Below, piece by piece: positions 21,829 through 25,562 of a stretch of DNA of 32,942 nt; position 1 is the stretch's first letter, and each line of letters begins with the position of its first letter. The stretch comes from Saprospiraceae bacterium (lineage in GTDB: Bacteria > Bacteroidota > Bacteroidia > Chitinophagales > Saprospiraceae). Below the pieces are notes generated by a model that was given only the letters and a program-made list of their open reading frames with translations, did not search any database and was not told where the DNA came from. The translations under genes were made by a program, and so were the position numbers. Location: assembly GCA_020630735.1 (NCBI GenBank), contig JAHDIP010000044.1, forward strand, positions 1 through 32,942, written 5' to 3'.

Positions 21829-22290
21829 TTAGACAATTTCTAGAATGCTTATCTTATTTCCATTGAATTGGAATTCATCACCAACTTGTTTGTTTTTGAG
21901 TAAGCTACCTATAGGGGAATCTAGAGAAACACAGTAAAAAATCTTTTCTTCTAGTACAACTTTACCAACTCCGATTGCCAGATAGTAACTTCCTTTGTTT
22001 GTGATGACGAGACTGCCTAAAGCTGATTTTCCTGTTTGCTTATCGGGATCAATAGTAGAAAAAATAGTTCTGACTTTGATCGCTTGCGAAAGTTGGATAT
22101 TGCTATTTTCTTCTTCGATTTGCATCATAGCTCTACCTGTGTTATGCTTATCGCCTACACTACTTTTTGTTTCCTTATTACGAGCCTCGGCTATAGAGTT
22201 GAGTTTATCTTGTATAGCATTTATTCGTTGTTCAATATTTTTGGCGCAGGCCTGATATAGTTGTTGTTTTAATAGAAGTTTTTTACTCAT
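21829..22290 (-). CDS. GreA/GreB-like transcription factor (atypical)
   Basis: 153 residues. An N-terminal helical hairpin (about 5-75, with TKSSVGDKHNTGRAMMQIEEE) is followed by the GreA/GreB C-terminal FKBP-like domain (about 90-153), whose core reads SPIGSLLKNKQVGDEF (125-140). Gre factors enter the RNA polymerase secondary channel and stimulate RNA cleavage; this shorter subgroup is widespread in Bacteroidota and is sometimes mislabelled as an acyl-carrier enzyme. The coiled-coil tip is not the standard Gre one, so cleavage activity is uncertain. Its ATG overlaps the stop of the serine hydrolase gene (ATGA, 22287-22290), so it is translationally coupled. Confidence 0.8.
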   Translation of the reverse strand: MSKKLLLKQQLYQACAKNIEQRINAIQDKLNSIAEARNKETKSSVGDKHNTGRAMMQIEEENSNIQLSQAIKVRTIFSTIDPDKQTGKSALGSLVITNKGSYYLAIGVGKVVLEEKIFYCVSLDSPIGSLLKNKQVGDEFQFNGNKISILEIV

Positions 22291-23615
22291 TCCTTAATGA
22301 TTAGCTGACTTTGGGATTTATGATTATTACTAAGTTGTAATAGATAAACACCTTTTTCATAAGAAGATATATCGACCAAAGTGTTATCATTTTTGATTGA
22401 AAGATCAGCAATGAGTACACCTATTGTACTATAAATACGAAGGCGATCAGCTTTGAACGAAGGCTTTATAAAGATGGATTCACTACTAGGGTTAGGACTT
22501 GCAAAAGGATCTTCTTTTGTCGTTTCAATAAAGGTAGTAGAAGTTGTGCTATTATGGCAAGGAAGTTCATCTTCTTGTGTTGCAGAATATTGATCAAGAT
22601 TATCTCTAAGTAGATTGATGATGTTATTAATATTACCACCAGTATTACTTAATACAATAACACCTTCCTTAGTTGCTTGGTTGAAATCCAAGATAGTGGC
22701 TACTCCTTGGTCTCCACCACTATGACCGTTTACTAAGAAATTTGTATTAGAAGCTTGAAGAATAGTGATGTCATCCATAGTACCTTCTTCAAGCAAAGTG
22801 ATAGCATAATTCGCCATATCTCTCAAAGAAGACCGAAGTCTACCCGAAGGATAATCATTATAACTATAATGACCGATTGCATTGAATGTACTGTTGGAGA
22901 AACTATAAGGAATGGCAATTTCTTCTTCTTCTAAATCATCAAAAAAGAATGACGATTGACTCATACATAATCGTTCAAAAATATGTTCTTGGCAATACTG
23001 ACCGAACGTTTCAGCTCCAGTTGCCACTTCTATCACATACCCAGCAAGCGCATAACCAATATTACTATAGTGATAAGTAGTTCCGATTGTTTCAGTATAG
23101 AAATTTAAGTTTTGATTATAGATAGAACCACTTGGTAATAAATAGTCTTCAAGGTAATCTCCTAATGCTTGGGTTTGGTTATCATTGTCCAAATAAGGCA
23201 TGACATCCCAATTGTCTTGGATACCTGCTACATGGTTGAGTAACATTCTAAGTGTTATGACACTGTTCGGAAAGAGCGGATGTGTCAAGGTCCAAGGTAG
23301 ATACTGATTAATCGGATCGTCTAATGAATTAATGTGTCCTTGTTCTATGGCAATCATTGCGGCACAATAAACAAAGTGCTTAGAAACACTCGCAAGCATA
23401 AATGGCGTATCTTCACTGACAGGAATGTTATTCTCAATATCGGCATATCCAAAAGTGCCTTGCCAGACGAGAGCACCATCTTTTACCATTCCGACTGCAA
23501 GACCAGGGATGTTATTATTTTCCATCTCTGTCTGAATAAGTGTACTTAAATCTTGGGCAGATAATAAAAAAGTACAGAAGAGTAATAAGGTAGAGAGTAA
23601 ATTTTTCATTGTCAT
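22287..23615 (-). CDS. Secreted serine hydrolase (beta-lactamase/DD-peptidase fold) with T9SS signal
   Basis: 442 residues (ATG 23615; a second ATG at residue 3 is equally likely). Signal peptide about 1-20 (LLSA before Gln21). The class C beta-lactamase/esterase domain (about 22-335) shows S76-V-S-K79, Y183-S-N185 and H298-S-G-G301, the three active-site boxes of this fold. A type A T9SS sorting domain (about 370-442, ASPNPSSESIFIKP, ending QLIIKE) sends it to the cell surface. Substrate may be an ester, peptide or cell-wall product; resistance to beta-lactams cannot be claimed. It starts 13 bases after the tetR stop and overlaps the Gre-like gene, so it belongs to the tetR operon. Confidence 0.88.
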   Translation of the reverse strand: MTMKNLLSTLLLFCTFLLSAQDLSTLIQTEMENNNIPGLAVGMVKDGALVWQGTFGYADIENNIPVSEDTPFMLASVSKHFVYCAAMIAIEQGHINSLDDPINQYLPWTLTHPLFPNSVITLRMLLNHVAGIQDNWDVMPYLDNDNQTQALGDYLEDYLLPSGSIYNQNLNFYTETIGTTYHYSNIGYALAGYVIEVATGAETFGQYCQEHIFERLCMSQSSFFFDDLEEEEIAIPYSFSNSTFNAIGHYSYNDYPSGRLRSSLRDMANYAITLLEEGTMDDITILQASNTNFLVNGHSGGDQGVATILDFNQATKEGVIVLSNTGGNINNIINLLRDNLDQYSATQEDELPCHNSTTSTTFIETTKEDPFASPNPSSESIFIKPSFKADRLRIYSTIGVLIADLSIKNDNTLVDISSYEKGVYLLQLSNNHKSQSQLIIKE

Positions 23616-23628
23616 TTTAATTTGCTAT

Positions 23629-24228
23629 TTACTTGGCAAGACCTTTAAATTTTAAATGTAAATATTGTTCAGCAATTTCTTTAATGGTCAGGTTATTTTC
23701 TATTAAGAATTTTGGATTGGTCAACACGTCAAAGATAAAATAACGATCAGCGTGTAGCAATAAGGCAACATTGACATTTTTAAATTCACCAGCTTTAATG
23801 CCTCCTTCATAATATGCATTGAGAGACTGCACCATCTGTTTCAAAAAAACATCAACTATCTCCCATTGGTCGGGATAGTCTTCTTTTAGGTCAAACAAAA
23901 ATTGGTTGGAAATATCAGATACATTATCACTGACAAACTGAATGAAATTGGTGTAGCGATTAATATAAGTGATTTGTTCATTATTTAATATTTGCTCATA
24001 GTCTTTCATGATCTCCATCTTCGACAGCAGGGCAAGTGTTACGATTTCTTCTTTTGATTTGAAGTACTCGTATAAGGTCGACTTACTTTTTTCCAACCAT
24101 TTGGCCATTTTATTAATCGTAATACCTTTCAAACCATGTTGTTGAAAAAAGGGGAATAAAGCATCTGCCCATTCCTGTTTTTTATCAAAATCTTGCTTTC
24201 GGTCTTTTACTACAGCTTTTCTGCCCAT
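23629..24228 (-). CDS. TetR-family transcriptional regulator
   Basis: 199 residues. The N-terminal HTH (about 15-62) reads GITINKMAKWLEKSKSTLYEYFKSKEEI, the standard TetR recognition pattern. The rest is the all-helical ligand-binding and dimer domain, which is not conserved enough to name the ligand. It is divergent from alkB with 133 bases between the two start codons. That gap contains two identical inverted repeats, one of which covers the predicted tetR -7 element. This supports autoregulation and control of alkB. An alkane, alkanol or fatty-acyl effector would be a reasonable inference from the neighbour, not something the sequence shows. Confidence 0.93.
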   Translation of the reverse strand: MGRKAVVKDRKQDFDKKQEWADALFPFFQQHGLKGITINKMAKWLEKSKSTLYEYFKSKEEIVTLALLSKMEIMKDYEQILNNEQITYINRYTNFIQFVSDNVSDISNQFLFDLKEDYPDQWEIVDVFLKQMVQSLNAYYEGGIKAGEFKNVNVALLLHADRYFIFDVLTNPKFLIENNLTIKEIAEQYLHLKFKGLAK

Positions 24229-24243
24229 AATTTTTATTTAAAT

Positions 24244-24269
24244 CGAACTAAAATTACAAAAATAGTTCG
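24244..24269. promoter_or_regulatory. TetR operator candidate O1
   Basis: CGAACTA (24244-24250), 12-base A-rich spacer, TAGTTCG (24263-24269). It is the same inverted repeat as O2, with centres 62 bases apart, about six helical turns. The predicted tetR -7 element lies inside it, so bound repressor would block tetR. Confidence 0.75.
24257..24264 (-). promoter_or_regulatory. Candidate -7 element of tetR
   Basis: On the minus strand this reads TATTTTTG, an exact TAnnTTTG match 28 bases before the tetR ATG and within operator O1. Confidence 0.5.
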
Positions 24270-24288
24270 GTTTTAACGATTTTATTTA

Positions 24289-24296
24289 TATATTTG
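24289..24296 (+). promoter_or_regulatory. Candidate -7 element of alkB
   Basis: TATATTTG is an exact TAnnTTTG match between the two operators. Transcription would start about 24300-24304, right at the edge of operator O2. Confidence 0.55.
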
Positions 24297-24304
24297 TATA
24301 GCAA

Positions 24305-24332
24305 TCGAACTAAAAACTGTAAAATAGTTCGA
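24305..24332. promoter_or_regulatory. TetR operator candidate O2
   Basis: TCGAACTA (24305-24312), 12-base spacer, TAGTTCGA (24325-24332): a perfect 8-base inverted repeat, one pair longer than O1. It lies just after the predicted alkB start site, a good place to stop initiation or elongation. Confidence 0.75.
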
Positions 24333-24361: not shown

Positions 24362-25414
24362 ATGAAGGACTTGAAATATTTGATCGCTTATCTCGCTCCT
24401 TTATCTGCTATGGCAGCAGTTTATTTTGGAGGCTACTTATCTTTTGCTGCTTTTTTAGTAGCATTCGTTTCTATTCCTATTTTGGAATTGGTACTTCCGA
24501 AATCAACCAAAAATTTTACTCCTGAAGAAGAAGAAGTTCGTTTGACGACGAGACTTTTTGATTACCTTATTTATTTCAATATTCCATTAATTTTCATTTT
24601 ACTTTGGATGTACTTTACAAGAGTAAGTGCTGGTGGATTAGAATTATACGAACTGATCGGAATGACAATCAGTGTGGGTATCAATGGTGCTGCTTGCATT
24701 AATGTTGCACATGAATTAGGACATCGAGATGAAAAGTACGAACAGTTTATGTCGAAATTATTATTGATGACGACACTCTATATGCACTTCTTTATAGAAC
24801 ACAACAGAGGACATCATAAAAATGTTGCAACAGATGAAGATCCTGCTTCTTCTCGTACAGGCGAAATCTTATATACTTTCTGGATTCGATCGGTTAGTGG
24901 TGGCTATATGAGTGCTTGGAATTTAGAAAATACTCGCTTAGAACGTGCTGGAGAAAAAGTGTGGAGTTTGAAAAATGAAATGATTATTTATCACATCATT
25001 CAAGTCGCTTATTTAGTGATCGTTGGATTGATTTTTGGATGGGCAGTAGTGCCATTCGCAATAGCAGTTGGTGTCATCGGATTTTTATTATTAGAAACGG
25101 TCAACTATATTGAACACTATGGTTTGCGCCGAAAAAAACTACCTTCAGGTCGTTACGAAAAAGTAGGCCCACACCACTCTTGGAATTCAGACCATGAATT
25201 AGGTCGTATCTTTTTGTATGAGCTTACTCGTCATTCAGATCATCACTATAAAGCGAATCGAAAATACCAAGTGCTTCGTCATTTTGAAGAAAGTCCACAA
25301 CTACCATTAGGTTATCCTGGTTCTATGCTCATGTCCTTTATTCCACCGCTTTGGTTTTGGTATATGGATGGAAAAGTAGAAGATTATAATCGACAGTTTC
25401 AGTTGAGTATGTAA
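24362..25414 (+). CDS. alkB: Alkane 1-monooxygenase (AlkB)
   Basis: 350-residue integral membrane diiron hydroxylase that oxidises the terminal carbon of alkanes to 1-alkanols, using electrons from rubredoxin. The His boxes of AlkB are all present: HELGH (117-121), EHNRGHH (146-152) followed by VATDEDPASSR, NYIEHYG (248-254), and HSDHH (291-295) in the TRHSDHHYKANRKYQ context. The end, LPLGYPGSMLMSFIPPLWF, is also characteristic. Hydrophobic helices lie near 5-22, 25-45, 68-86, 96-115, 205-225 and 228-246. The length is somewhat below the roughly 400 residues of Pseudomonas AlkB, and no rubredoxin domain is fused or encoded nearby. Regulation by the divergent TetR is strongly suggested by the two operators upstream. 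Confidence 0.95.
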   Translation: MKDLKYLIAYLAPLSAMAAVYFGGYLSFAAFLVAFVSIPILELVLPKSTKNFTPEEEEVRLTTRLFDYLIYFNIPLIFILLWMYFTRVSAGGLELYELIGMTISVGINGAACINVAHELGHRDEKYEQFMSKLLLMTTLYMHFFIEHNRGHHKNVATDEDPASSRTGEILYTFWIRSVSGGYMSAWNLENTRLERAGEKVWSLKNEMIIYHIIQVAYLVIVGLIFGWAVVPFAIAVGVIGFLLLETVNYIEHYGLRRKKLPSGRYEKVGPHHSWNSDHELGRIFLYELTRHSDHHYKANRKYQVLRHFEESPQLPLGYPGSMLMSFIPPLWFWYMDGKVEDYNRQFQLSM

Positions 25415-25456
25415 AGAAAAAAGACTTCGTTGACGGAAGTCAGAATGTTTAGATAA

Positions 25457-25516
25457 GCTAAAAATACGAGAGGTCAGATTCACATTTATAGTGATCTGAC
25501 CTCTCGTATTTTTAGC
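25457..25516. repeat. Hairpin element, copy 2, also probable terminator of alkB/nadB
   Basis: The left arm 25457-25483 pairs with 25491-25516 (26 pairs, one bulged T) across loop ATTTATA. It contains the core GAGAGGTCAGAT(T)CAC, differing by one base and one insertion from the hairpin at 4930-4972. The following 18 bases TTTTAGCAAAACTGAAAT match 17 of 18 at 4912-4929. It lies between the converging alkB and nadB genes and so may end both transcripts. Confidence 0.7.
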
Positions 25517-25562
25517 AAAACTGAAATGATCTGACATGATATCTAAAATCGAAGCGTTTTTA

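Follow-up and report, generated by a model that had tools for sequence, protein, structure and literature searches.

Two palindromes between divergent tetR and alkB genes

The window analysed here is a stretch of 32,942 nucleotides from a Saprospiraceae genome assembly, in which tetR and alkB are divergently oriented with 133 bases between the genes (Table 1). The tetR product contains a TetR_N helix-turn-helix (PF00440, 30.4 bits against a cut-off of 24). Its AF2 model, built from 4 sequences and with a mean pLDDT of 85.6, is all-helical and yields near full-length matches to TetR-family chains, with Z scores of 15.5-18.4 among the best 50 matches. The recognition helix predicted from this model comprises residues 49-55 (KSTLYEY). 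The alkB product is the sole match of the AlkB kind in this assembly, and phmmer searches relate it to PDB entries 8f6t (E 9.4e-82) and 8sbb (E 5.2e-80). Homology to 8f6t extends over the catalytic membrane core, where the stretches HELGH, EHNRGHH, NYIEHYG and RHSDHH align; we take these to be histidine boxes. The protein has one Pfam domain and is unfused to any redox domain.

Table 1. Features of the tetR-alkB region, in window coordinates
Feature	Position	Strand	Description
tetR	23629..24228	-	TetR-family repressor, 199 aa, N-terminus MGRK; Pfam TetR_N, E 3.3e-07
Putative operator O1	24244..24269	.	Exact match to CGAACTA-N12-TAGTTCG; kept in orthologous gaps; promoter geometry
Predicted tetR -7 box, TATTTTTG	24264-24257	-	Inside O1; no TTG box upstream
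Predicted alkB -7 box, TATATTTG	24289..24296	+	Consensus TAnnTTTG; starts 19 nt after O1
Putative operator O2	24306..24331	.	Exact match to CGAACTA-N12-TAGTTCG; second site also in L006, L116 and L120
alkB	24362..25414	+	Homologue of membrane di-iron alkane 1-monooxygenases; 350 aa; Pfam FA_desaturase, E 4.8e-26

Directly downstream of tetR, and on the same strand, lies a gene whose product has a beta-lactamase fold and carries a type IX secretion sorting domain (22287-23615). At the other end of the pair, alkB converges with nadB, and the sequence between these two genes (25448-25525) holds an inverted repeat with 32-nt arms that are 88% complementary, a 14-nt loop, and runs of A and T. This repeat is a probable two-way terminator.

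The preliminary description of this DNA reported two identical inverted repeats of the form CGAACTA-N12-TAGTTCG in the gap, 62 bases apart. Both 26-mers are present exactly as described, with a start-to-start distance of 62 bp. The word 'identical' applies to their arms and not to their 12-nt spacers, which agree at 7 of 12 bases. O1 and O2 are the only exact matches to this pattern in the entire assembly (6,635,307 bases in 434 contigs). Six further places carry 2 mismatches each, giving 8 places in all versus 30 for the reversed pattern. These six are no more than background, and a wider regulon in this genome was rejected as an explanation for them. A search of the window with up to 3 mismatches returned the same two sites, both with 0 mismatches; at this threshold 32 of 100 shuffles gave 2 or more, so this search alone is not significant.

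Conservation of the palindrome among relatives

The search for TetR homologues covered 148 relatives, 396 genomes from the order and 395 from the phylum, in samples that overlap. In the order sample, TetR matches were found in 41 of the 396 genomes and 30 loci were taken, with the TetR loci of G420, G400, G372, G380, G362 and G365 left out. For AlkB, 80 of 92 loci were kept. Loci L001-L004 were left out of all locus counts, and L118 and L119 out of the counts of motif position. Divergent tetR-alkB loci number 29 and represent 22 genus-level groups; L026, which has no TetR match by tblastn, is not among them.

A motif scan of orthologous tetR-alkB gaps had been proposed in the preliminary description, with absence of the motif as the outcome that would speak against an operator. 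The palindrome is conserved: when up to one mismatch is allowed, RAACTA-N11/12-TAGTTY occurs in 28 of the 29 divergent gaps (21 of the 22 genus-level groups), and 23 gaps match it exactly. These 21 groups belong to the order of the window and beyond, including one Flavobacteriaceae and two Cyclobacteriaceae records. When the gaps were dinucleotide-shuffled (200 rounds), a mean of 0.315 of 29 (maximum 2) matched with at most one mismatch, and the exact motif appeared 0 times in every round. A chance palindrome is rejected by these values, which the motif far exceeds in orthologous gaps, together with the presence of only two exact matches in the assembly.

The spacer is 12 nt in 21 of the 23 exact gaps and 11 nt in the other 2. 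The earlier observation that the half-sites are more widely spaced than in the classic TetR operator is supported, and this spacing is conserved. Other spacers (4 to 25) were tried, and an exact match was obtained with N17 only, in one gap; at one mismatch, N17 is matched in 13 of the 29 gaps. A 17-nt spacer was rejected as a separate site type, and we attribute these matches to the flank TTTACTTT, which follows the N12 site. The sole exception among the 29 loci is L017 (G022), where the 269-base gap between divergent tetR and alkB lacks the operator though both proteins are conserved. At L126 the palindrome is present and no alkB is visible, because the contig ends about 200 bases past tetR.

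The palindrome is also associated with tetR and alkB in other gene arrangements. Two loci, L051 from Algoriphagus and L114 from Cyclobacteriaceae, have tetR downstream of alkB in the same orientation, and in both the palindrome lies upstream of alkB. Where tetR is located elsewhere, 14 alkB loci were read, excluding L187 (the pair of L017). Exact palindromes were found at 2 of these, starting about 71 bases upstream of alkB in G003 and about 278 bases upstream in G400, and palindromes with one mismatch at 2 more (G143, with N12, and G513), leaving 10 of the 14 without the motif at up to one mismatch. In G003, G400 and G143, tetR and alkB are on separate contigs. The G513 site (L197) is a degenerate operator-like palindrome with N11 and 1 mismatch about 39 bases before alkB, and a similar stretch that exceeds the mismatch threshold lies directly upstream of alkB in G726 (L198).

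These last two genomes each carry an exact palindrome 4.67 kb upstream of tetR (G513, L152:2348-7620; G726, L200:1067). In G513 this site stands at the head of a row of four genes, which encode a fusion of a desaturase-type oxygenase with FNR and ferredoxin, a GMC oxidoreductase, an FMN oxidoreductase and, at the end of the row, the TetR. The distance from palindrome to tetR is the same in G726, where the genes between were read in part.

Among close TetR homologues with no alkB seen alongside (matches under 100 bits left out), 11 of 12 lack an exact site. AlkB loci without a TetR match have the palindrome in 1 of 78 cases, some of the 78 having little upstream sequence (such as L065 and L108); the single case is L026, which entered the sample by a partial TetR match. 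The gaps between an FNR-Fd gene and alkB in L035, L036, L037, L039, L040 and L042 are likewise without the palindrome. In 31 chosen genomes, a strict form of the pattern occurs at 20 places versus 9 for the reversed pattern. Fourteen of these places are in tetR-alkB gaps, 1 precedes alkB in G003 and 1 precedes the gene row in G513. Four are elsewhere (two in G022, one each in G055 and G151). The G055 site and one of the G022 sites were read and do not adjoin alkB, and the neighbour of the G151 site may be missing because the contig ends 60 bases away. We treat these four stray sites as background.

Promoter geometry and a proposed repressor switch

The flavobacterial -7 box has the consensus TAnnTTTG at -12 to -5, as given in PMC9723704. 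Matches to this consensus lie where the preliminary description had placed them, TATTTTTG for tetR inside O1 and TATATTTG for alkB between the two sites, and at both promoters a TTG box is absent 17-23 nt upstream of the -7 box. The -33 place of alkB reads TTCG, within the right arm of O1 (TTTG in L006). Transcription is predicted from these boxes to start near 24301 for alkB and near 24252 for tetR. The right arm of O1 (24263-24269) would then be located at about -38 to -32 of the alkB start, the whole of O1 at about -17 to +9 of the tetR start, and O2 at about +6 to +31 of the alkB transcript.

Overlap of the palindrome with consensus promoter boxes is also seen in relatives. Of the 30 positive gaps, 28 of them divergent and 2 same-strand, 13 have an alkB -7 box whose start is 18-20 nt beyond the palindrome; in 8 the box is inside the palindrome, in 3 it follows by 7-8 nt, and in 6 its placement is unclear. 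These boxes are consensus matches placed by our own reading, and some gaps hold several candidates.

We consider it very likely that O1 and O2 serve as operators for the neighbouring TetR-family protein, which would act as an autorepressor and switch alkB, and CGAACTA-N12-TAGTTCG is very probably the operator sequence of this repressor. An autoregulated switch over alkB had been claimed in the preliminary description. With the motif in nearly all divergent gaps, the sites do resemble operators through which the neighbouring TetR would control alkB and tetR, and the autoregulatory part of that claim is read from the position of O1 over the tetR -7 box.

We infer a switch in which, with no inducer, the repressor would occupy O1. 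One bound complex would block both promoters, because the right half-site of O1 falls on the alkB -33 region and also, in the opposite strand, on the beginning of the tetR -7 box. O2, just past the predicted alkB start, would provide a second block that affects only alkB. Release of the repressor would be triggered by a ligand of its C-terminal domain, by analogy with AlkX probably an alkane-derived fatty acid or acyl-CoA.

That this TetR activates alkB, or that the palindrome binds another regulator, seems to us very unlikely. Some TetR-family proteins do activate (PMC6921075), and in 13 gaps the end of the operator falls at the -33 region. However, the operator also covers the -7 box (8 of 30) or lies past the predicted start (O2), positions that suit repression. 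A different regulator would have to be reconciled with a motif that goes with this particular TetR (28 of 29 loci alongside alkB versus 1 of 78 without a TetR match).

The preliminary description had further suggested, from the in-phase placement of the sites, that repressors on O1 and O2 interact by looping across 62 bp from the same helix face. This distance is indeed 5.9 turns at 10.5 bp per turn, and L006, the closest relative, keeps 62 bp despite a different gap length and different flanks. L112 has a weak second match (one mismatch) 52 bp off, or 4.95 turns, which may be chance. However, a conserved helical phase is not supported, since the second site lies at 62 bp in L005 and L006 (with one mismatch in L006) but at 56 bp in L116 and L120, two loci of one genus in which both sites are exact; 56 bp is 5.3 turns, about 0.57 turn off. 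Moreover, the alkB -7 box is fixed at 19 nt from O1 in L005, L006, L116 and L120 while O2 shifts by 6 bp. This is the reverse of what a phase requirement predicts. A single site at up to one mismatch is found in 23 of the 28 positive divergent gaps, and we know of no looping TetR-family protein. Looping is very unlikely, although a near-whole-turn phase may hold in single lineages (L112, 52 bp), and O2 is better read as a putative added road-block.

Each operator, a palindrome of 26-28 bp, falls within the 22-32 bp class bound by dimers of dimers, single-dimer operators being 15-17 bp (PMC4150764). A distance of 19 bp, about 65 angstroms, separates the centres of its half-sites. Published recognition-helix distances are 31-38 angstroms in TetR-family DNA complexes (PMC4150764) and 41-50 angstroms in DarR structures without DNA (PMC10636190), and one dimer cannot readily span both half-sites because 19 bp exceeds them. 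We infer that two dimers probably bind each operator in the mode of QacR. QacR, CgmR, CprB and DarR, which bind as dimers of dimers, share this operator length class, and their half-sites differ from those found here. The TetR model matches the DNA-bound QacR chain 1jt0 (Z 16.0, rmsd 3.1, 182 aligned), a score that is uninformative on binding mode because TetR-family chains score alike. An unusually open single dimer spanning both half-sites is an unlikely alternative to two dimers. It would agree with strong conservation in the two outer half-sites only (the interior of the spacer is A/T-rich with little conservation, so that inner contacts of a second dimer are putative), but it would have to bridge about 65 angstroms, well above the distances in both sets of structures. 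DarR illustrates how a weak inner half-site can serve a second dimer (PMC10636190).

Residues of the predicted recognition helix were compared with operator type, using rows that we sorted into GAAC and AAAC types and leaving TetR matches under 80 bits out of the helix table and the tree. All 13 GAAC rows have S at residue 50, and all 17 AAAC rows have A there; at residue 54 the former have E, Q or S and the latter K, H, N or T. By our reading of the helix, these positions correspond to Gly45 and Tyr49 of DarR, which touch bases (PMC10636190). Some rows are mixed. L006 carries both types (CAAAC in O1, CGAAC in O2) with S50 and an S/E helix, L123 and L126 combine A50 with a TTAAAC arm and a TCAAAC arm, and both operator types are found with T54 (L115; L131 and L132, with TCAAAC and TCGAAC sites). 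Independent covariation of helix and operator looks clean, but it was rejected because a tree built without residues 45-57 gives the switch as one change. The pattern is consistent with direct recognition of the operator by this helix, as a single event.

Known regulators of alkB and the supply of electrons

TetR-family regulators of alkB are described in Actinobacteria, namely AlkX in Dietzia sp. DQ12-45-1b and M. tuberculosis and AlkU in Rhodococcus jostii (PMC8784404, PMC9430723, PMC6921075). In the same reports, the Dietzia AlkX operator is longer than typical and fits a dimer or a pair of dimers, and fatty acids weaken operator binding. Such control of alkB is apparently unique to Actinobacteria according to a passage of the review PMC8784404, a table row of which seems to place a TetR-type Orf10, identified from sequence only, near alkB1 of A. 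hongdengensis. The locus described here likewise has a gene for a putative TetR-family repressor of alkB that is linked to alkB, with the candidate operator on the alkB promoter (promoters being placed by consensus). In the AlkX and AlkU systems, as these sources depict them, the order is alkB, rubredoxin genes and then the regulator, whereas at the Bacteroidota loci examined here tetR is mostly divergent; the inverted repeats given for R. jostii (PMC6921075) also differ from the operator found here. Likened by description, AlkX is the closest working parallel: the tetR-alkB pair would work like AlkX but differs from it in the order of the genes, the operator, the phylum and, it appears, the redox partner. 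Among the literature matches listed, seen as abstract openings and including genome papers such as PMC5531107, none concerns TetR-alkB regulation in Bacteroidota, which is weak evidence of absence. The proposed mechanism is of a familiar type, in a bacterial group where TetR-alkB control was little known, and a conserved, predictive operator could help to locate the regulon and to construct sensors for alkanes or fatty acids.

FadR-type fatty-acid repressors of the TetR family offer a second comparison. B. subtilis FadR with stearoyl-CoA (3whc) matches the TetR model with Z 16.6 and rmsd 2.8 over 179 aligned residues. The FadR-type NCBIfam family gives a weak match (E 1e-4) whose 22.1 bits fall far below the cut-off of 200, and TetR is therefore not a member of this family.

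No match to rubredoxin (PF00301) was found in 24 of 24 genomes with a divergent tetR-alkB pair, comprising the assembly studied here (G000) and 23 relatives. All are draft assemblies, 18 of which have a completeness of 90% or more and a contamination of 5% or less. The control search found PF00301 in 7 of 14 named genomes. AlkB in these genomes may use an electron donor other than rubredoxin. One known class of AlkB, with N-terminally fused ferredoxin reductase and ferredoxin, has been shown to be active (PMC8918992). That class relies on ferredoxin reductase and ferredoxin, whereas here AlkB is unfused and an FNR-[2Fe-2S] protein is encoded by a separate gene nearby in some relatives.

A broader reading, which we offer tentatively and with slightly less than even confidence, is that the palindrome marks a Bacteroidota regulon for rubredoxin-free membrane di-iron oxygenases, in which AlkB would be fed by a separate FNR-[2Fe-2S] (PaaE-like) reductase and the repressor would have followed the chemistry and not one gene. 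This last element is suggested because the operator heads the oxygenase-FNR-ferredoxin row in G513, and in G726 by its identical distance to tetR. Should the rubredoxin-free reading hold, the route by which AlkB is assumed to receive electrons in these bacteria would change.

The FNR-[2Fe-2S] PaaE-like reductase gene, recognised by the Pfam domains of its product, adjoins tetR in L021, L022, L023, L025 and L027, the last of which combines this gene with tetR, alkB and the palindrome. It is divergent from alkB in L035, L036, L037, L039 and L040, lies 0.64 kb away in L042, and is found, partly matched, at about 2.2 kb in L038. The relation of this gene to tetR and alkB is one of association only. 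FNR-[2Fe-2S] homologues at E <= 1e-30 occur in 23 of 29 genomes, and some of these homologues will be other reductases. In the assembly that contains the window, a 56% identical copy is located on C20, a different contig from that of alkB.
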